DNA of 64,000 nt from Photorhabdus heterorhabditis (lineage in GTDB: Bacteria > Pseudomonadota > Gammaproteobacteria > Enterobacterales > Enterobacteriaceae). Shown piece by piece: positions 5,862 to 55,333 of the stretch. The stretch is taken from positions 1 through 64,000 of the forward strand of contig NZ_RCWA01000020.1 in the NCBI RefSeq assembly GCF_018448905.1. The letters are read 5' to 3'. The number at the start of each line of letters is the position of its first letter. Within the stretch, counting starts at the first letter, position 1. A program made the position numbers and the translations under genes. The notes under the pieces were generated by a model that saw nothing but the letters and a program-made list of their open reading frames with translations, made no database searches and had not been told where the DNA came from.

Positions 5862-6350
5862 TTACTCTTTCAATAAAGCACCTGAATAACCCAATTGCCG
5901 CCAGGCTTCAAAAACCACAACAGCAACTGAATTAGAGAGATTCATACTGCGGCTGTCCGCCAGCATTGGAATACGGATCTTTTGTTGGGGGGGCATATTA
6001 TCCAAAACATAAGATGGTAGCCCTCTGGTCTCTGGCCCGAACATCAAATAATCCCCATCCTGATAACTTACCGCACTGTGTGCTGATGTTCCTTTCGTCG
6101 TCAGAGCAAACAAACGGGCAGAAAACTCTCCTGTAAACCCTTCATTCTCTAAAAAAGCGTAATAATCATGATGTTGCTTGATATTGGCAAACTCATGATA
6201 ATCCAGCCCGGCGCGACGTAGCCTTTTATCATCCCAGGTAAAACCCAAAGGCTGAATCAGATGCAACTGAAAGCCGGTGTTAGCACAAAGACGAATAATA
6301 TTACCGGTATTAGGTGGGATTTCAGGTTCAAATAAAACGATGTTTAGCAT
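5862..6350 (-). CDS. trmL: tRNA (cytidine(34)-2'-O)-methyltransferase TrmL
   Basis: 162 residues from [21 protein letters not shown]; an upstream in-frame ATG at 6374 would add eight residues not found in the family. SPOUT-class knot motifs are clear: [22 protein letters not shown] and [20 protein letters not shown]. It 2'-O-methylates the wobble base of certain tRNA-Leu species. It is convergent with cysE, as in E. coli, and marks the left border of the O-antigen region. Confidence 0.95.
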
Positions 6351-30097: not shown

Positions 30098-30592
30098 ATG
30101 CGTAACATAGCAGCGTTGGTTCTTGCGTCAATATTTGTTGTTAGCTCGGTAGCATCTTTAGCTGAAACAGCAAATACAGCTCACGCTGCTACAGTACCTG
30201 ATATTTGTGCGTCGTGTGGTTATAAGAGTGGTGAAGCTCATCATTATCGTAATAATAATGAAACCAGTGACAATGATCATATGTTCAATGGTATCACTTT
30301 AACCGAGCAGCAGCGCCAGCAAATGCGTGATTTGATGGTGCAAAAACATCAGCAGCGCTCATTGATGTTGATTAATCGCGCAGAACGTGAAGAGATGCGC
30401 AAATTAGTAACGGCGAAGGATTTTGATGAAGCGGCAGTAAAGGCTCAAGCTGAAAAGATGGCTAGATATAGTGTTGAACGTCAGGTGGAAATGGCCCGTA
30501 TCCATCATCAGATGTATCAACTGTTGACTCCTAAGCAGCAAGCACAATTAGAGCAACACCATCGGCAGCGTATGTCTCAGTTACCGAACTGA
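30098..30592 (+). CDS. cpxP: Periplasmic Cpx regulator CpxP
   Basis: 164 residues from ATG 30098, which has GAGGAG 8 bp upstream; in-frame codons further up lack a signal peptide. Signal peptide MRNIAALVLASIFVVSSVASLA, then the paired LTxxQ motifs typical of CpxP/Spy (TLTEQQRQQM and LLTPKQQAQL). It inhibits CpxA and helps clear misfolded proteins in the periplasm. The 3' UTR encodes CpxQ. Confidence 0.93.
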   Translation: MRNIAALVLASIFVVSSVASLAETANTAHAATVPDICASCGYKSGEAHHYRNNNETSDNDHMFNGITLTEQQRQQMRDLMVQKHQQRSLMLINRAEREEMRKLVTAKDFDEAAVKAQAEKMARYSVERQVEMARIHHQMYQLLTPKQQAQLEQHHRQRMSQLPN

Positions 30593-30638
30593 TTTTGTAG
30601 TATCCATAGCATAGTAGTAAGTTAGTAGTAAACGAGAA

Positions 30639-30697
30639 TTTTTCCTTGCCATAGACACCATCCCTGTCTTTCAGGCCCTTTTTAGGGCCTTTTTTTT
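30639..30697 (+). ncRNA. cpxQ: CpxQ-type 3'-UTR small RNA
   Basis: Forty-six bases after the cpxP stop the sequence TTTTCCTTGCCATAGACACC, continuing ATCCCTGTC, is essentially the conserved Hfq-dependent sRNA CpxQ of E. coli and Salmonella, released from cpxP mRNA by RNase E. It ends in a perfect terminator stem AGGCCCT-TTTT-AGGGCCT plus T8. The terminator stem differs from that of E. coli (CCCCCACATGCTGTGGGGG). The change is explained if the 3' half was replaced by an integrating element (see the repeat entries). CpxQ represses membrane-protein mRNAs. Confidence 0.85.
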
Positions 30698-30769
30698 CAG
30701 TCACTTACAACACATTTCTTTGTAAAACAACAACATAAAAAAGTATGAAGGGGTTAGAAAGTATACGAA
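30658..30769 (+). repeat. CpxQ 3'-half direct repeat, copy 1 (attL-like)
   Basis: 112 bp starting at CCATCCCTGTC inside cpxQ and running 72 bp past the T-tract to GTATACGAA. It recurs at 33513-33624 with the same length and only about six mismatches. The first ~40 bp are the sRNA 3' end; the last ~70 bp (with AAAAAAGTATGAAGGGGTT) form a shared right arm. Copy 3 (34537) shares only the core. Confidence 0.88.
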
Positions 30770-30803
30770 AGTTTTTGAGTGTGGACGCTTGCCACAATAT
30801 CAG

Positions 30804-30926
30804 ATGCGCCTTCCAGAAAAATTTCGCGAGCAATTAGAAGAGCAAGCGTGTAGAGACGGTGATTTTTCTCTTGTAACATGGATCAAGCGGATTTTGCGTA
30901 AAGAACTACGGGAACGAGGTATTGAA
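30804..30926 (+). pseudogene. Fragment of small Arc/YlcI-like DNA-binding protein
   Basis: MRLPEKFREQLEEQACRDGD and FSLVTWIKRILRK resemble the ribbon-helix-helix core of small phage-type proteins. After that the frame is shifted by an extra A in an A4 run (around 30900); the intended tail, ELRERGIEPKG, lies in the next frame ending at 30937-30939. Upstream the frame is open without an ATG into the repeat arm, so the 5' end has probably been lost. Confidence 0.5.
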
Positions 30927-31015
30927 CCGAAAGGTTGAATCTTGTGAAATGCCAAGAAGCACCCATTCTAGGTGCCTCTTGTTTTGAATTGCTCTAACAC
31001 CTTTATATGTGGGTC

Positions 31016-31354
31016 TTAGCCTACCGTAATCTGAACAGGTTTTCCTATACGGGTTAACATATTAACCAATGCGTCAATGGTGAATTTACTTACCTTTTTA
31101 TTCACAACATCAGATACTCTTGGACGAGAAATGTGCAACACCGTTGCTACTTCAGCTTGTTTCATTTTTTTATCTGCAATCCATAAAGTAATTTCTTCCA
31201 TTAGCTGTTCTTTGATTTGCAATGTGTTTTCTATTTCTCGTAAAGAGGTTGCATGAAGTTGCTGAGCCTCTTGCTCAGTAAAACCTAACTCAGAAAATAT
31301 ATTATGTCCGGCTGGAGTTACCCTACGAATTTCAGTGTCAATTTTAGTGGTCAT
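31016..31354 (-). CDS. HigA-like helix-turn-helix antitoxin
   Basis: 112 residues. The C-terminal half holds an XRE-type helix-turn-helix (MKQAEVATVLHISRPRVSDVVN, HTH_37 style); the N-terminus is acidic. It follows and overlaps the toxin by 4 bp, the HigBA gene order (toxin first). Expected to neutralise the toxin and repress the operon. Confidence 0.87.
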   Translation of the reverse strand: MTTKIDTEIRRVTPAGHNIFSELGFTEQEAQQLHATSLREIENTLQIKEQLMEEITLWIADKKMKQAEVATVLHISRPRVSDVVNKKVSKFTIDALVNMLTRIGKPVQITVG

Positions 31355-31710
31355 TTGATATTTCTCCGTTGCTGGATAACTGCGTTGTATCGTACTTTAG
31401 CGATATCCTTATCATGTTTATTCGTTTGTTGAGTTTTTTTCTGAAAACTATGCAATACATAAATAACTTCATCGAATTTAGCAACATACATAATACGATA
31501 AATACCTGTATTGTCTCTTAGCCGTATTTCTTTTACGCCAGAACCGATGTCAGAAAAGGGTTTCCAATCTTCAGGATCTATTCCATGCTGTATTCTATGA
31601 AGCTGATAGCCTGCGTCTTTACGTGCATCTGTAGGGAAGGCTAACAAATCTTCATAAGAAGAGCCAATCCAGGCAATTTCTTTCTCTGTACCGCTCCTGA
31701 TTTTCGTCAT
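31351..31710 (-). CDS. HigB-like toxin (phage Gp49-like/DUF891 family)
   Basis: 119 residues, RelE-superfamily. WIGSSYEDLLAFPTDARKDAGYQLHRIQHG, VKEIRLRDNTGIYRIMYVAKF and VIYVLHSFQKKTQQTNKHD are the typical Gp49-like motifs. Presumably a ribosome-dependent mRNA interferase. The GGAAGGGAAA before the ATG is a good ribosome site. Intact pair with the antitoxin gene. Confidence 0.87.
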   Translation of the reverse strand: MTKIRSGTEKEIAWIGSSYEDLLAFPTDARKDAGYQLHRIQHGIDPEDWKPFSDIGSGVKEIRLRDNTGIYRIMYVAKFDEVIYVLHSFQKKTQQTNKHDKDIAKVRYNAVIQQRRNIK

Positions 31711-31947
31711 AGTTTTCCCTTCCTTACCTGATTGTATAAAATTTTATACAATTCTGTGCAAAGTTACAAGAATTGTCGCTTCATTTATCGTGCGCGGCAT
31801 GAGTCTTTTGATTACTCAAGGATGAACATCTCTAATACTCTTTTTATATCCTCCACTTTGTGCTATCCCTGATACTTACCCAATCAACTGAATTTTATTG
31901 TCACAGTGATCACCATAGCGAAATCATCATTACGGGAGTCTTTCGCT

Positions 31948-32347
31948 ATGGCACAAGATTATCATCATGGTGTCCGCGTGCAGGAAATCAACGAGGGTAC
32001 GCGCACTATTACCACTGTCAGCACCGCTATTGTCGTGCTAGTCTGCACAGCGGATGATGTTTGACACCAAAACTTTTCCCTTAAACACGCTAGTCTTGTT
32101 AACCGACGTTCTGACTGCCAATAGTAAGGCCGGCAAAACGGGCACATTGTTCCATGCTCTGCGAGCGATTGCCGACCAGTCCAAACCCGTGACTGTTGTT
32201 GTGCGTGTGGCTCAGGGGAAAACTGAAGCAGAAACCACGTCGAATATCATTGGCGGCGTTACCGACGAGGGCAAAAAAACGGGAATGCAGGCGCTGCTTG
32301 CGGCACAAGGTCAGCTTGGCATCAGACCGCGTATTTTGGGTGCTTGA
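31948..32347 (+). pseudogene. P2-like phage tail sheath protein (FI) fragment, frameshifted
   Basis: [20 protein letters not shown] followed by [16 protein letters not shown] is the N-terminus of P2-family tail sheath FI. The frame then ends at TGA 32062, while homology continues in the +1 frame (TFPLNTLVLLTDVLTANSKAGKTGTL, QGKTEAETTSNIIGG, MQALLAAQGQLGIRPRILG). It breaks off at 32347. Only the first third of the usual ~390 residues remains. Relic of a prophage or tailocin. Confidence 0.85.
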
Positions 32348-32821
32348 GCACGTTATTTTAGCTATGAACGATTTCAGCAATATTTGACATGTGAAGATGT
32401 TGAAAAGAGACAACGTGCAATAATCAAAATCATCGGCGCATCAAATCTTATTGGTAAATCTGAAAGTTGACTTTTGGATTCTATCAACTAGAGTACGATT
32501 ATTCCCCATGAGGGCTTTGTTAAAAAATTTCTCCCGCAAAGGGCTTATAACCCCTCATACATAGTATGAGGGGGTTTCAGACCGCTGACAAACTTCGTTG
32601 AAAATAACGGGGTTTGTTTCCTTCATTATGAATCATAATGTCTCCATTTTCCTCATTAACCCGGTCTAATCCCCCGCTAAGGCGTTATTTTCACTTCTCC
32701 CGTAATAAAATGCTTGTTCTCCAGAAATAAAAACAACAAAGCATTGCGATCAGCAATGGCAGCTCGCAGGACGAGACAGCTATGCTGGCTTGATGCACAG
32801 CACAACATAGCACCCGCCCGC
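32348..32821. other. Non-coding stretch with palindromes
   Basis: About 470 bp without a credible gene. It contains a strong hairpin, CCCCTCATAC-ATA-GTATGAGGGG (32551-32573), and a second palindrome, CATTATGA-ATC-ATAATG (about 32623-32640). Either could be a terminator or mobile-element end; no known IS terminus was recognised. Confidence 0.45.
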
Positions 32822-33106
32822 TCAAAGAAGATGACGGGGGTGATTCATCTGTTGATGAAGGATACGCGCAATCAGAATATCGGTATCCCGGATAGTATAG
32901 AAAACCGTGTGACGGTGAAACTCAACCCGCATGACACTTGGGACAGATGGGTATTCCCTCCCTATATGTGGCATTTCAGCTAGTGTGTCAAAAAATGCTT
33001 CCAGTGCCTCCGTATAATGGTCAGCCTGAACTTCACCGAATTGCAAAAGTGTATAATCATAAATCCCAGCAAAATCTTCAGCAGCCTGATCCGTGAGCTT
33101 ATACAT
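32822..33106 (-). CDS. ParE-family toxin
   Basis: 94 residues, RelE/ParE superfamily: YKLTDQAAEDFAGIYDYTLLQFGEVQADHYTEAL, MPHIGREYPSVPSVMRVEFHRHTVFYTIRDTDILIARILHQQM. This is typical of ParE, which poisons DNA gyrase in studied cases. It overlaps the parD gene by 8 bp. Intact. Confidence 0.9.
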   Translation of the reverse strand: MYKLTDQAAEDFAGIYDYTLLQFGEVQADHYTEALEAFFDTLAEMPHIGREYPSVPSVMRVEFHRHTVFYTIRDTDILIARILHQQMNHPRHLL

Positions 33107-33341
33107 TATGTCTGTGTTTCCGTTGTTCCGCTATATCCCGTAGGGTCAGCGAGCTTTCCCCACTTTCCAAGCCAGCAATAACCGCTTTGCGTACAATCTC
33201 ATCGTAAGCTTCTTGTTGCTCCAGCAAACGCAGCGCCGAACGCATAACTTCACTGGCATTTCCATAACGGCCACTTTCAATCATATGCTGTACGAACCTG
33301 TCAAGTTGTTCGCCCATACTGACAGTAGTAATTTTTCTCAT
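33099..33341 (-). CDS. ParD-family antitoxin
   Basis: 80 residues with an N-terminal ribbon-helix-helix (TTVSMGEQLDRFVQHMIESGRYGNASEVMRSALRLLEQQ), the CopG/ParD signature, and a C-terminal toxin-binding tail. First gene of the minus-strand parD-parE operon; likely autorepressor. Confidence 0.9.
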   Translation of the reverse strand: MRKITTVSMGEQLDRFVQHMIESGRYGNASEVMRSALRLLEQQEAYDEIVRKAVIAGLESGESSLTLRDIAEQRKHRHNV

Positions 33342-33410
33342 ATTTCACCGATGTATTAATAGTTAATACATCAAGTGTACAGCAAATGAGGCTGCATTAC
33401 CAATGTCCTG

Positions 33411-33512
33411 AAGCCCCGAAAAAAATCGGGGCTTATGTCGATGTGGTCAAGGTGTGGACACTTACTTAAATAAATCATTTTATTACAATGTGTTATGTTT
33501 GAAAAACAAACG
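33411..33512 (+). repeat. Island left arm, copy in the middle of the island
   Basis: Begins with a perfect hairpin AAGCCCCGA...TCGGGGCTT (33411-33434) and continues TCGATGTGGTCAAGGTGTGG...TTATGTTTGAAAAACAAACG up to the CpxQ core at 33513. The 75 bp from TCGATGTGG are repeated at 34462-34536 with the same length and distance to the core. Confidence 0.8.
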
Positions 33513-33624
33513 CCATCCCTGTCTTTCAGGCCCTTTTTAGGGCCTTTTTTTTCGGTCATTTACAATGCATTTCTTTGTAAAACAACAATATAAAAAAGTA
33601 TGAAGGGGTTGGAAAGTATACGAA
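33513..33624 (+). repeat. CpxQ 3'-half direct repeat, copy 2 (hybrid att-like site)
   Basis: Near-identical to 30658-30769, including the terminator AGGCCCT-TTTT-AGGGCCT and the right arm up to GTATACGAA. It carries both the left arm (shared with copy 3) and the right arm (shared with copy 1), as an attP-like or junction site between two tandem insertions would. The CpxQ 5' half (TTTTCCTTGCCATAGA) is not present. Confidence 0.88.
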
Positions 33625-33769
33625 CGGCAACGGATCACGCCGGAAGTTTATCCTCATGGACTCAGTCTATCAGACTCCTCAACCTCATCCTGGTAACGTA
33701 ATGGATAAAGGCGCAGTAAATGGCCTTCGTGAGTGGTTCGAAAATGTAATAGGAGTCGAACATGATTAA
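33623..33769 (+). pseudogene. HicA-type toxin, 5'-truncated
   Basis: The frame entering from the repeat arm reads NGNGSRRKFILMDS, then PQPHPGN and MDKGAVNGLREWF, which is the C-terminal half of a HicA-family mRNA interferase. The N-terminal half is missing and its place is taken by the right arm of the repeat. The stop overlaps the hicB start by 8 bp, as in intact hicAB operons. Confidence 0.7.
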
Positions 33770-34105
33770 AAGCAACAACATTATGACTATCGACGGTCAT
33801 CCCGCTTCTGTTACCTACGAAGCAGAAATTAGGGCCTTTCGCGGCAAGTTTCTGGATGTCACCGGATATTGTGATTTCGTATCAAACAGTATTGACGGGC
33901 TTGAAAAAGAGGGACAAATCTCACTGGCTGAATATATAGAAACGTGCGAGGAAGAGGGAATTAACCCATTCAAGGAAGAGGACAGGATAAAATCTTTTAC
34001 TCTTCGTTATCCTGGCTGGAAGCTCGTTTGACTGCGGCGACAATATCACTCGCAGTCTCAAAGAACCAGTTCATAGTTCAGCTGCTTGAGCGGGAACTTC
34101 AATAA
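33762..34105 (+). pseudogene. HicB-type antitoxin, frameshifted
   Basis: The first frame (MIKSNNIMTIDGHPASVTYE, FRGKFLDVTGYCDFVSNSIDGL, RIKSFTLRYPGW) is a HicB partial-RNase-H domain and stops at 34031. The continuation of the protein lies in another frame: WLEARLTAAATISLAVSKNQ then FIVQLLERELQ, ending at 34103-34105. This is the expected DNA-binding tail. A one-base change near 34014 (TATCCTGGCTGG) would explain it. The short form may still fold, but the operator-binding tail is lost. Confidence 0.72.
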
Positions 34106-34133
34106 AATAGATAACGCCGGACAGTAACAAAAC

Positions 34134-34496
34134 GTGTTTTTAGTGATACGTATTTCATGGGAAGAAATCGCCCAAACTGACCGGGAGCAAATTTATCTCT
34201 ACTTCTTTGAACGGGCTGGGCTGTTATTGGCTGATACAATGGATACAAAATTTTCGGAGATGGCTGAACTTCTGAAAGTTAGCCCATACGCAGGCATAAA
34301 GGCTCGTAACAGCCCTGATGAACGTTATAGAAAACTCGTTGTCCCTCATTTTCCTTTCATCATGCTCTACCGTTACGATGAGGATATAGAAAATATAAAA
34401 ATTCTCAGAATATTGCACATCTCATTAAGCCCCTCGGCATGCGAAGGACTTTTCTTGTATATCGATGTGGTCACAGTGTGGATATTTTTGTTTTAA
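34134..34496 (+). CDS. Orphan ParE/RelE-like toxin with arm-derived tail
   Basis: 120 residues from a GTG start. IRISWEEIAQTDREQIYLYF, PYAGIKARNSPDERYRKLVVPHFPFIMLYRYDEDIENIKILRILH is a ParE/RelE core. The final ~20 residues (ACEGLFLYIDVVTVWIFLF) are read from the repeat left arm and do not belong to the family, so the original 3' end has been lost. No cognate antitoxin is adjacent; the gene starts 28 bp after the broken hicB. Activity is uncertain. Confidence 0.65.
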   Translation: MFLVIRISWEEIAQTDREQIYLYFFERAGLLLADTMDTKFSEMAELLKVSPYAGIKARNSPDERYRKLVVPHFPFIMLYRYDEDIENIKILRILHISLSPSACEGLFLYIDVVTVWIFLF

Positions 34497-34536
34497 AATC
34501 CTTTTGTTACAATTCGTTATGTTTGGAAAACAAACA
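34427..34536 (+). repeat. Island left arm, right-hand copy
   Basis: AAGCCCCTCGGCATGCGAAGGACTT, a degenerate form of the hairpin in the middle copy, followed by TCGATGTGGTCACAGTGTGG... to the CpxQ core. The 75 bp from 34462 align without gaps to 33438-33512. Confidence 0.75.
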
Positions 34537-34579
34537 CCATTCCTGTCTTTTTCCCGCCTTCTGGTGGATTTTTTTTAAT
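34537..34579 (+). repeat. CpxQ 3'-half, copy 3 (attR-like, diverged)
   Basis: CCATTCCTGTCTTT followed by a different terminator, CCCGCCTTCTGGTGGATTTTTTTT. It resembles the E. coli CpxQ 3' end (CCATCCCTGTCTTCCCCC...) in style. The downstream sequence is backbone. It is plausibly the original chromosomal 3' end of cpxQ displaced by insertions. Confidence 0.7.
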
Positions 34580-34666
34580 TGTTGTTATTCTGACCAATCC
34601 TGTTTATCTTACTTCATTTAACTTAAGTTGATTTAATTATTCATGGTTCTCAGGAAGGGAAATAGT

Positions 34667-35341
34667 ATGTCTGGTAACGAGATAAAAGATCGACGTCCGA
34701 TCAAAACGCGCAATTCAGTATGGGCTGGGAAAGCGGCTAAGTGGCTGCAATATCACGGGGTGACACCAAATAGCATATCTATTGCTAGTGTTGTTTTTGC
34801 TGCATTAGCTGGATTGTGTTTCGCGGCCTGTTTTAAGGACCAACCTTTCTGGTTAACTTCAGTATTATTGGTTATTGGGGCTTTATTTATTCAGACTAGG
34901 TTAGTGTGTAATTTATTGGATGGAATGGTGGCTGTTGAAGGTGGTTTGAGAACATCTGCCGGCACTGTTTTTAATGATCTTCCAGATCGTATCGCTGATT
35001 CTTTTATTTTGATTGGATTGGGATATGGTTTAACTCTTTTCCCATTTGCAATTTCCCTTGGCTGTATTGCGGCATTATTGGCCGTTTTGACCGCTTATAT
35101 TCGCTTATTAGGTGGTACTTGTGGTTTGCCTCAGCGTTTTCTTGGCCCAATGGCGAAACAGCATCGTATGGCATTAATTACTGTTGGTTCAATTATCGCG
35201 GCTTTTTTACCTCAGTTATGGGGCCAGTATCTTTTGTTTGTGGTATTAGTCGCTATCACCTTGGGTTGTCTCTGGACATGTATTCGTCGAACTAGAGTCA
35301 TATTAAATGAATTGCAAGAGAAGGATGCTTGTAATGAATAA
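34667..35341 (+). CDS. CDP-alcohol phosphatidyltransferase family protein (YnbA-like)
   Basis: 224 residues from ATG 34667 (AAGGGA upstream). About six membrane helices. The family motif D-G-x2-A-R-x8-G-x3-D-x3-D is partly visible as LLDGMVAVEGGLRTSAGTVFNDLPDRIAD, with the conserved Asp residues. Enzymes of this family swap CMP on CDP-diacylglycerol for an alcohol. The order with an acyltransferase and a CdsA-like gene resembles E. coli ynbAB. Substrate unknown. Its stop overlaps the next gene by 8 bp. Confidence 0.85.
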   Translation: MSGNEIKDRRPIKTRNSVWAGKAAKWLQYHGVTPNSISIASVVFAALAGLCFAACFKDQPFWLTSVLLVIGALFIQTRLVCNLLDGMVAVEGGLRTSAGTVFNDLPDRIADSFILIGLGYGLTLFPFAISLGCIAALLAVLTAYIRLLGGTCGLPQRFLGPMAKQHRMALITVGSIIAAFLPQLWGQYLLFVVLVAITLGCLWTCIRRTRVILNELQEKDACNE

Positions 35342-35975
35342 ATCCCAAGAAGTGACACTGGTAAGTAAAGGCATGGGTTCTTTTCTGTCCGGGCTTTGCC
35401 GTTTGTTAACCGGTGTGAGAATTCGTTGGATTGGATGTAAGCCATCAGTGGCTTCCCGAATTTATTATGCTAATCATACCAGTCATCTGGATGGGTTAGT
35501 TATCTGGGCTGGGTTTCCTCGGGCATTACGTTATCGGGTGCATCCGGTTGCTGCTCGTGATTATTGGAGTAAAACTCGTCTGCGCAGGTATTTTATCAAT
35601 AAAGTTTTTCGGGCTGTGCTTATTGATCGTAGAGGAGAGGATTGTTTAAAGGGAAATACTCTTACGCCAATGGAGGATGTATTAAAACGAGGGGAGTCTT
35701 TAATTTTGTTCCCAGAAGGGACACGAGGAAATGGGGAACAAATTAATAAGTTTAAAGGCGGTCTATATTATTTAGCGAAGAAATATCCTGATGTTGAGCT
35801 TATTCCTGTTTATCTGGAAAATTTAAACAGGGTTTTGCCAAAAGGTTCGGCACTTGTTGTTCCTGTTATTTGTTCGGCAACATTTGGTCAGCCTTTGGAG
35901 AAATTAGGCGAAAAAGAGGAGAAAGCTGATTTTCTCCAGCGGGCTCGTCTGGCATTGGAGGTGTTAATATTATGA
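35334..35975 (+). CDS. PlsC-like 1-acylglycerol-3-phosphate acyltransferase
   Basis: 213 residues. The catalytic motif YANHTSHLDGLV (H-x4-D) and the substrate motif LFPEGTRGNGEQINKFKGG are clear. It acylates a lyso-lipid, likely lysophosphatidic acid. It sits between the YnbA-like and CdsA-like genes, overlapping both (8 and 4 bp), so the three gene products should act together. It is distinct from the housekeeping PlsC, which is normally encoded elsewhere. Confidence 0.87.
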   Translation: MNKSQEVTLVSKGMGSFLSGLCRLLTGVRIRWIGCKPSVASRIYYANHTSHLDGLVIWAGFPRALRYRVHPVAARDYWSKTRLRRYFINKVFRAVLIDRRGEDCLKGNTLTPMEDVLKRGESLILFPEGTRGNGEQINKFKGGLYYLAKKYPDVELIPVYLENLNRVLPKGSALVVPVICSATFGQPLEKLGEKEEKADFLQRARLALEVLIL

Positions 35976-36916
35976 CTATGCTTAATAATAAACTACTCCT
36001 GTTGCTGGGTGGTATGTTCGTGCCGTTAATTATTGCCAGTATTGTTGGCGCAATACTATCTTTCAAATATTCAAAGGATAACAGTAATGCGACAATCGAT
36101 AATCTGAATGCCCGCATCCGCGGCTGGTGGGGGATGTGTGTTGTTTGTTTGTTATCAGTGATTATTGGGCCAATCGGTTCAGTTTTATTATTTGCAAGTA
36201 TGTCATTTTTCGCTTTACGGGAATTTTTTACTCTGACACCAACACGACGAAGTGATCATGAAGCCATGTTTTGGTGTTTTTTTATTTTTATGCCATTGCA
36301 ATATATTGCCGTTGGTATTCAGTGGTATGGTGTGTTTTCTATTTTTATTCCTGTTTATGTTGTCCTGTTTTTACCTGCCCGTATTGCATTGGCTGGTGAT
36401 ACGACTAATTTTCTAGAGCGGACGGCTAAAATACAGTGGGGGATGTTAGTTGCTGTATTCTGTATTAGCCATGCACCTGCGTTATTGATGTTGAATATTC
36501 CTGGTTATGAAGGGGAAAATGTTGAATTACTTCTGTTTTTGATGATTGTGGTGCAGATGTCGGATGTTTTGCAGTACGTGTTTGGTAAATTATTTGGCAA
36601 ACATCCTATTGTGCCTAAATTGAGTCCTAATAAGACAGTTGAAGGTTTTGTCGGCGGCATTTTGGCGTCAGTTTTATTAGGAATGTCGCTTTATTGGGTT
36701 ACGCCATTTTCTCCGTGGGAGGCAGGTTTGATGTCGTTAGCGATTACGCTGATGGGCTTTATTGGTGGCTTGTGTATGTCGGCGATAAAACGCGATAGTG
36801 GCATTAAAGATTTTGGTGAAATGATTGAAGGTCACGGCGGCATGTTAGACCGAATCGATTCTTTGTGTTTTGCTGCCCCAGTATTTTTTCATCTGACACG
36901 TTATTTTTATACATAG
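35972..36916 (+). CDS. CdsA-like phosphatidate cytidylyltransferase (YnbB-like)
   Basis: 314 residues with about eight membrane helices. The CDS signature SAIKRDSGIKDFGEMIEGHGGMLDRIDS is near the C-terminus, and PKLSPNKTVEGFVGG precedes it. It makes CDP-diacylglycerol from phosphatidate and CTP. Overlaps the acyltransferase gene by 4 bp. With the two genes upstream it could make phosphatidate, activate it and move it to an alcohol, a self-contained lipid-head-group pathway. Confidence 0.88.
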   Translation: MTMLNNKLLLLLGGMFVPLIIASIVGAILSFKYSKDNSNATIDNLNARIRGWWGMCVVCLLSVIIGPIGSVLLFASMSFFALREFFTLTPTRRSDHEAMFWCFFIFMPLQYIAVGIQWYGVFSIFIPVYVVLFLPARIALAGDTTNFLERTAKIQWGMLVAVFCISHAPALLMLNIPGYEGENVELLLFLMIVVQMSDVLQYVFGKLFGKHPIVPKLSPNKTVEGFVGGILASVLLGMSLYWVTPFSPWEAGLMSLAITLMGFIGGLCMSAIKRDSGIKDFGEMIEGHGGMLDRIDSLCFAAPVFFHLTRYFYT

Positions 36917-55164: not shown

Positions 55165-55333
55165 CTATAGAGTATCACAGACCATGAACGGATTTCATTG
55201 CGAGATAGATGGATATTCTGTATGATCCGCCGCCTTTGGTATGGAAGATGCCAAACTTATTTTATCAACGCGACGTGTGGTGTCTGGCGGCAACAGGGCT
55301 GGATAGCGACACGGCCTTAACAGAGGTTATCCC

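Follow-up and report, generated by a model that had tools for sequence, protein, structure and literature searches.

The 3′ half of the sRNA gene cpxQ as a phage attachment site: a very probable stack of two decayed P2-family prophages in Photorhabdus heterorhabditis

Prophages between cpxP and fieF have been described in Escherichia coli, where strain W carries the P2-type prophage Wphi1 at this position (PMC3032704) and an O157 strain a 31-kb prophage (PMC7609406), and in Photorhabdus and Xenorhabdus cpxP figures in a list of plasticity hotspots (PMC3091717). The cpxP plasticity regions of the latter study, RGP1, RGP82, GI109 and P103 in four genomes, lie at the same locus as the one analysed here; P103 is a prophage, judging by its label, and the passages there on these regions mention no att site, integrase or small RNA (sRNA). 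The passages on the locus in the three papers do not name the sRNA CpxQ as the target. The present analysis concerns a 64-kb stretch of Photorhabdus heterorhabditis DNA (the window), in which the cpxQ gene is followed by an island bounded and divided by copies of the CpxQ 3′ half. Very probably, two decayed prophages of the P2 family (Peduoviridae, WPhi type) are stacked in the sequence from cpxQ to position 34550. A preliminary description of this DNA had taken the use of cpxQ as a site to be undescribed, a claim refuted by the above reports and by the attP of phage WPhi, which carries the core.

Attachment sites at the 3′ half of cpxQ

The core CCATCCCTGTCTTT occurs exactly at 30658 and 33513 and, with one mismatch (CCATTCC...), at 34537, and a search of both strands of the 64 kb allowing up to one mismatch finds no further place. 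From the core rightward, copies 1 and 2 are identical at 108 of 115 nucleotides (nt; 30655-30769 and 33510-33624), with just 22 of 74 nt identical immediately left of it. Copies 2 and 3 have 59 identical nt in the 76 to the left of the core, or 74 in 93 with the core included; to its right, 19 of 44 nt are identical. The three copies are the attL, attP-like and attR sites of one core, with two elements in tandem, and the features of the site are as follows.

30100..30592, + strand: cpxP, an open reading frame (ORF) with a DNA-level match in 13/13 Photorhabdus genomes; CpxP relatives found
30640..30697, + strand: cpxQ sRNA; first 31 nt as in K-12 cpxQ, terminator of the phage right-arm type
30656..30790, + strand: copy 1, attL; core 30656-30671, then the right (P′) arm, with one Int arm-type site TGTGGAC at 30780
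33438..33496, + strand: P arm of copy 2; Int arm-type sites at 33442 and 33453, IHF-like AT-rich site from about 33469
33511..33624, + strand: copy 2, attP-like junction of both elements; core 33511-33526 and right arm
34462..34550, + strand: copy 3, attR; P arm, core 34535-34550
34551..34642, + strand: chromosomal right flank with a displaced, weaker terminator-like hairpin
34643..35341, + strand: backbone gene right of the site, present in 13/13 Photorhabdus genomes; no Pfam family at E 0.01

The switches in identity at the core uphold the preliminary description in its proposal that elements integrated site-specifically and in tandem at the 3′ half of CpxQ, and in the att layout that it gave. 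The three copies and the left arm shared by copies 2 and 3 are confirmed, with the correction that the copy 3 core has one mismatch; the right arm shared by copies 1 and 2 stands as well, its extent being seven mismatches in 115 nt and not about six in 112. The same description had named ordinary dispersed repeats as the contrary case. For the right arm this is rejected, as a query with copy 1 (30600-30780) against the whole draft genome (226 contigs) returns two places, copy 1 itself and copy 2. The window contains no tRNA gene that could serve as the target.

The arms were compared with the record of phage P2, which annotates the P arm, IHF site, core and P′ arm and served as the reference. 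Within the 64 kb, the annotated 28-nt P arm of P2 is matched best in copy 2 (22/28 nt at 33438) and second best in copy 3 (20/28 at 34462), and left of the core both copies have a predicted P arm with paired Int sites and an IHF site. By blastn against 50,697 phage records, copy 2 matches 10, including P2 on its annotated Int and IHF features. The WPhi attP, located between ogr and int, has the same core followed by a terminator that differs by one base from that of K-12 cpxQ, and across WPhi, K-12 and the window the core of attP and the chromosomal target at cpxQ have the same sequence. A 61-nt query with the WPhi core recovers 47 phage records.

The sRNA gene is identified as cpxQ because its first 31 nt are identical to annotated E. 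coli K-12 cpxQ and because it lies directly after cpxP; at gathering thresholds Rfam does not flag CpxQ in the window, where the L31 ribosomal protein leader at 55274-55327 is the sole match. In a genus sample of 13 Photorhabdus genomes, that of the window included, the first 31 nt are identical throughout, and the sequence after nt 31, including the terminator, is in all 13 of the phage-arm type, of at least two kinds. The current terminator 3′ of CpxQ folds at -10.5 to -13.7 kcal/mol in the 13 genomes; a 45-nt stretch of the displaced chromosomal end gives -2.9 to -8.5 in 12 of them and -16.9 in genome G006. The folded stretches are not strictly alike, and the values hint at decay of the displaced chromosomal terminator. 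As already proposed, each insertion would rebuild CpxQ with a new terminator, to judge by the att layout and the terminators that follow the core. On the right of the site, three genes of other kinds (window 34643-36916) replace fieF in Photorhabdus, upstream of a pfkA-like ORF (named by eye).

The missing integrase and the decay of the island

In related Photorhabdus genomes, a cluster of ORFs with 11 members adjoins the same right arm, and three tested members match phage integrase profiles (PHROGs, E 1e-65 to 1e-70). Their neighbours include a C-type repressor, an origin-nicking (gpA-type) replication protein and a terminase, assigned by profile matches, and Dam and capsid genes recognised by eye without a profile. 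Judging by this place beside the same right arm, the enzyme missing from the window, where no integrase adjoins the P′ arm, is a P2-type tyrosine integrase. The preliminary description had left the mobilising enzyme as lost or acting in trans and had suggested a search for an integrase family recurring next to the core. Such a family is found in relatives. Loss is supported, the draft genome being without a close relative of the P2-type integrase (best match a stretch of 45 amino acids at 47% identity). Action in trans is rejected, since the 20 Phage_integrase matches in the draft genome have just 33-47% identity over 45-55 amino acids to the P2-type enzyme.

By tblastn, 337 of the 50,697 phage records contain a relative of the integrase; P2-like phages of Enterobacter, Escherichia and Salmonella rank highest among the matches listed. 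The exact core lies within 800 bp 3′ of int in 17 of 20 integrase loci examined, nine of the 17 having been found through the core; the three exceptions are P2 (CyaR core), ENT4 (another core) and L028 (contig break). In the integrase tree, whose root is for drawing only, the CpxQ-core integrases fall on one side from P2, P22H1, Kp4868, pro483 and P88, the 17-row group having a support of 92/89, which falls below the tool's star. The group is not uniform, as the ENT4 integrase falls on the CpxQ side of the tree yet has another core. In this Enterobacter phage (L295 2280-2560), P and P′ arms surround the different core, possibly as the result of a target switch.

The island itself holds the following genes and remnants.

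31016..31710, - strand: HTH_37 antitoxin-like gene (31016-31354) and Gp49/HigB-like toxin gene (31351-31710); Pfam
31906..32347, + strand: broken P2-type tail-sheath (FI) fragment; Pfam/PHROGs tail sheath
32822..33341, - strand: ParE (32822-33106) and ParD (33099-33341), a toxin-antitoxin pair adjoining the P arm; ORFs, Pfam
33611..34102, + strand: truncated HicA-like gene and frame-broken HicB-like remnant; Pfam and comparison with relatives
34134..34496, + strand: ParE-family toxin-like ORF, here without an RHH partner; ORF, Pfam

Most intact genes of the island are toxin-antitoxin genes, and beyond the broken tail sheath the window has no virion or replication genes, full sets of which are present in long relatives. 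The window blocks 30878-32341, 32332-33526, 33622-34145 and 34142-34423 each recur in relatives with differing neighbours, the first of them inside the long prophages of G012 and G002, and the HTH_37 and Gp49/HigB-like block is found inside long prophages of two relatives. Adjacent blocks overlap by a few bases, which is the pattern expected from short-homology deletions. In six small Photorhabdus stacks, ParD and ParE are full length in 6/6 and the integrase in 0/6 (coverage 0 to 0.80), counts that are not independent as these stacks share ancestry; among three long prophages of the genus, ParDE is present in one. In the small stacks the toxin-antitoxin genes outlast the phage genes, and addiction may account for their retention.

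A sequence of events that would produce this arrangement begins with recombination, by the P2-type tyrosine integrase, between the phage attP core and the matching CpxQ 3′ half. The resulting attL would keep the 5′ part of CpxQ and take its core, terminator and P′ arm from the phage, and the attR would combine the P arm with the retained former terminator of the chromosome. Integration of a second element at attL or attR, presumably following the first as a separate event, would yield the order attL, element, attP, element, attR, with a rebuilt CpxQ that probably still works. Later deletions, likely at short homologies, would have removed the genes for integrase, replication and virion; most of the genes then remaining would be toxin-antitoxin genes.

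The site in relatives and the weighing of explanations

In all 13 Photorhabdus genomes a phage-type arm lies right of the CpxQ core, of one of two right-arm kinds (A, B) or a mixture, the sequence of G009 breaking off after about 70 nt of arm. Both flanks are on one contig in nine genomes, 2.6 to 38.2 kb apart, and on different contigs in the other four. At least one internal att-like core copy is present in G012, G002, G005, G007 and G010, so that stacks recur; with the strict pattern G011, G001, G008 and G004 have no internal copy, and under looser matching arm remnants appear in these four. In the khanii-type genome G006 (L029 3285-8504), four related ORFs (cluster c23) follow attL on the contig.

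In a sample of the family Enterobacteriaceae, the exact 15-nt core is present in 81 of 149 genomes. The classification outside Photorhabdus covers 87 places, which reduce to 86 because two stretches of G098 overlap; 79 are linked to the CpxQ 5′ part and eight are not. The 79 comprise 37 empty sites (fieF within 300 bp), four with a full P2-type integrase, four with an integrase remnant, one with only the P′ site pair, 14 with fieF further off and 19 not resolved. The empty site of K-12 has a single core copy, in agreement with the check for an empty site proposed at the outset. In E. coli, a 221-nt cpxQ query matches 5375 of 5426 genomes, and 4545 of the 5375 cover the site at 80% or more. Of five split loci opened, four have P2-type late genes before fieF, in favour of P2-family prophages at this site. 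IMG/VR contributes at least 120 stretches with at least 121 cores, of which at least 28 have a P2-type int, at least 51 more a P arm without int, at least six only fieF and at least 36 nothing, the latter perhaps being chance matches to 15 bases.

Individual loci show further arrangements. Contig G098:C1 (L137) has cores at 4359315 and 4361481; the second lies 2.2 kb past cpxQ, close upstream of fieF, has no integrase and probably marks another decayed island. In G024:C233 (L165/L166), cores at 6028 (+) and 14333 (-) lie in opposite orientation with fieF between them. In E. coli GN02461 (L317), a transposase gene of IS200 lies in the cpxP-fieF interval, directly 3′ of the cpxQ terminator.

Several observations weigh against a stack of two P2-family prophages. 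The island has no trace of an integrase, and it is therefore a remnant rather than a prophage able to move by itself; the tail-sheath fragment is its only clearly virion-derived piece; and of the two P′ sites copy 1 retains one and copy 2 none. None of the 13 Photorhabdus genomes has an empty site, so we infer attB for this genus, and the genome of the window is a draft. The locus is split or partial in 830 E. coli genomes, and one of the five such loci opened has IS200 and no prophage.

Direct repeats could by themselves arise if the end of cpxQ had been duplicated as an ordinary segment, with no site-specific recombination involved, an explanation of practically negligible probability because the repeats switch partner exactly at the core, as integration does (22/74 left of copy 1; 19/44 right of copy 3), and because the same switch recurs in relatives. 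The predominance of toxin-antitoxin genes among the intact island genes would fit an island of non-phage origin, or an array of toxin-antitoxin cassettes, whose mobilisation at cpxQ is due to an unrelated enzyme; the P2-type arms, core, adjoining integrase and gene order in relatives, together with the presence of the same toxin-antitoxin blocks inside long prophages, make this very improbable. A different history within the P2 family, in which the stack arose not from two separate integrations but from a single phage as a tandem dilysogen, or from recombination between two resident prophages, draws on the right arm common to copies 1 and 2 (108/115 nt) and on Photorhabdus sp. G007, which has the same joint after the right arm (1685 nt, 97.7%). 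The shared arm and the G007 joint indicate that the elements come from a common pool. This history is nevertheless unlikely, as copies 2 and 3 are less alike in their left arms (59/76) and other genomes stack elements of clearly different arm kinds (A, B).

sRNA 3′ ends as targets and comparison with known systems

The annotated 27-nt attP core of P2, read as its reverse complement, is exactly the final 27 nt of K-12 CyaR (L290 3115-3201; L292 2857-2883), and in the K-12 annotation the cryptic prophage PR-X starts inside cyaR. P2-type prophages at rybB, cyaR and cpxP-fieF are reported in E. coli strains (PMC3032704). The last 27 nt of RybB were not found, at up to four mismatches, within 800 bp 3′ of 26 integrases, three of which had just 114-134 bp there, and the rybB case is therefore taken from that report. 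The 3′ ends of sRNAs may thus be a recurrent target of the P2 family. We somewhat favour a broader reading in which P2-family integrases are specialised on the 3′ ends of Hfq-type sRNAs, with CpxQ used by the WPhi type, CyaR by P2 and, by report, rybB. Because the end of the sRNA comes with the phage, phage DNA would encode both the functional 3′ half and the terminator of CpxQ throughout Photorhabdus, each integration would exchange them, and the displaced terminator of the chromosome would meanwhile decay.

Both the locus and the prophages at it are known, and the link to CpxQ with the exchange of its terminator forms a new, testable angle within the literature that could be searched. That search, with subscription journals mostly outside its reach, found no paper naming CpxQ as an attachment site or describing terminator exchange, and the best 12 of the 13 mentions of phage, integration or insertion in the CpxQ paper (PMC4817254) include none on attachment sites. 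The proposal explains a recurrent hotspot by one mechanism with a named enzyme, in which a stress sRNA of known function serves as a phage attachment site and receives its terminator from phages. It becomes testable whether lysogeny alters the 3′ end, stability or Hfq binding of the sRNA, and whether toxin-antitoxin genes hold prophage wrecks in place.

Among described systems, WPhi and similar Peduovirus phages at cpxP-fieF resemble the window in core, arm layout, integrase kinship, the position of int adjoining the P′ arm and chromosomal site. In contrast to WPhi, the window holds two stacked remnants without an integrase, and the Photorhabdus arms have other terminators. Phage P2 has a P arm and IHF site like those of the window and an integrase 50.6% identical to that of P. 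bodei, but its core corresponds to the 3′ end of CyaR and not to that of CpxQ.

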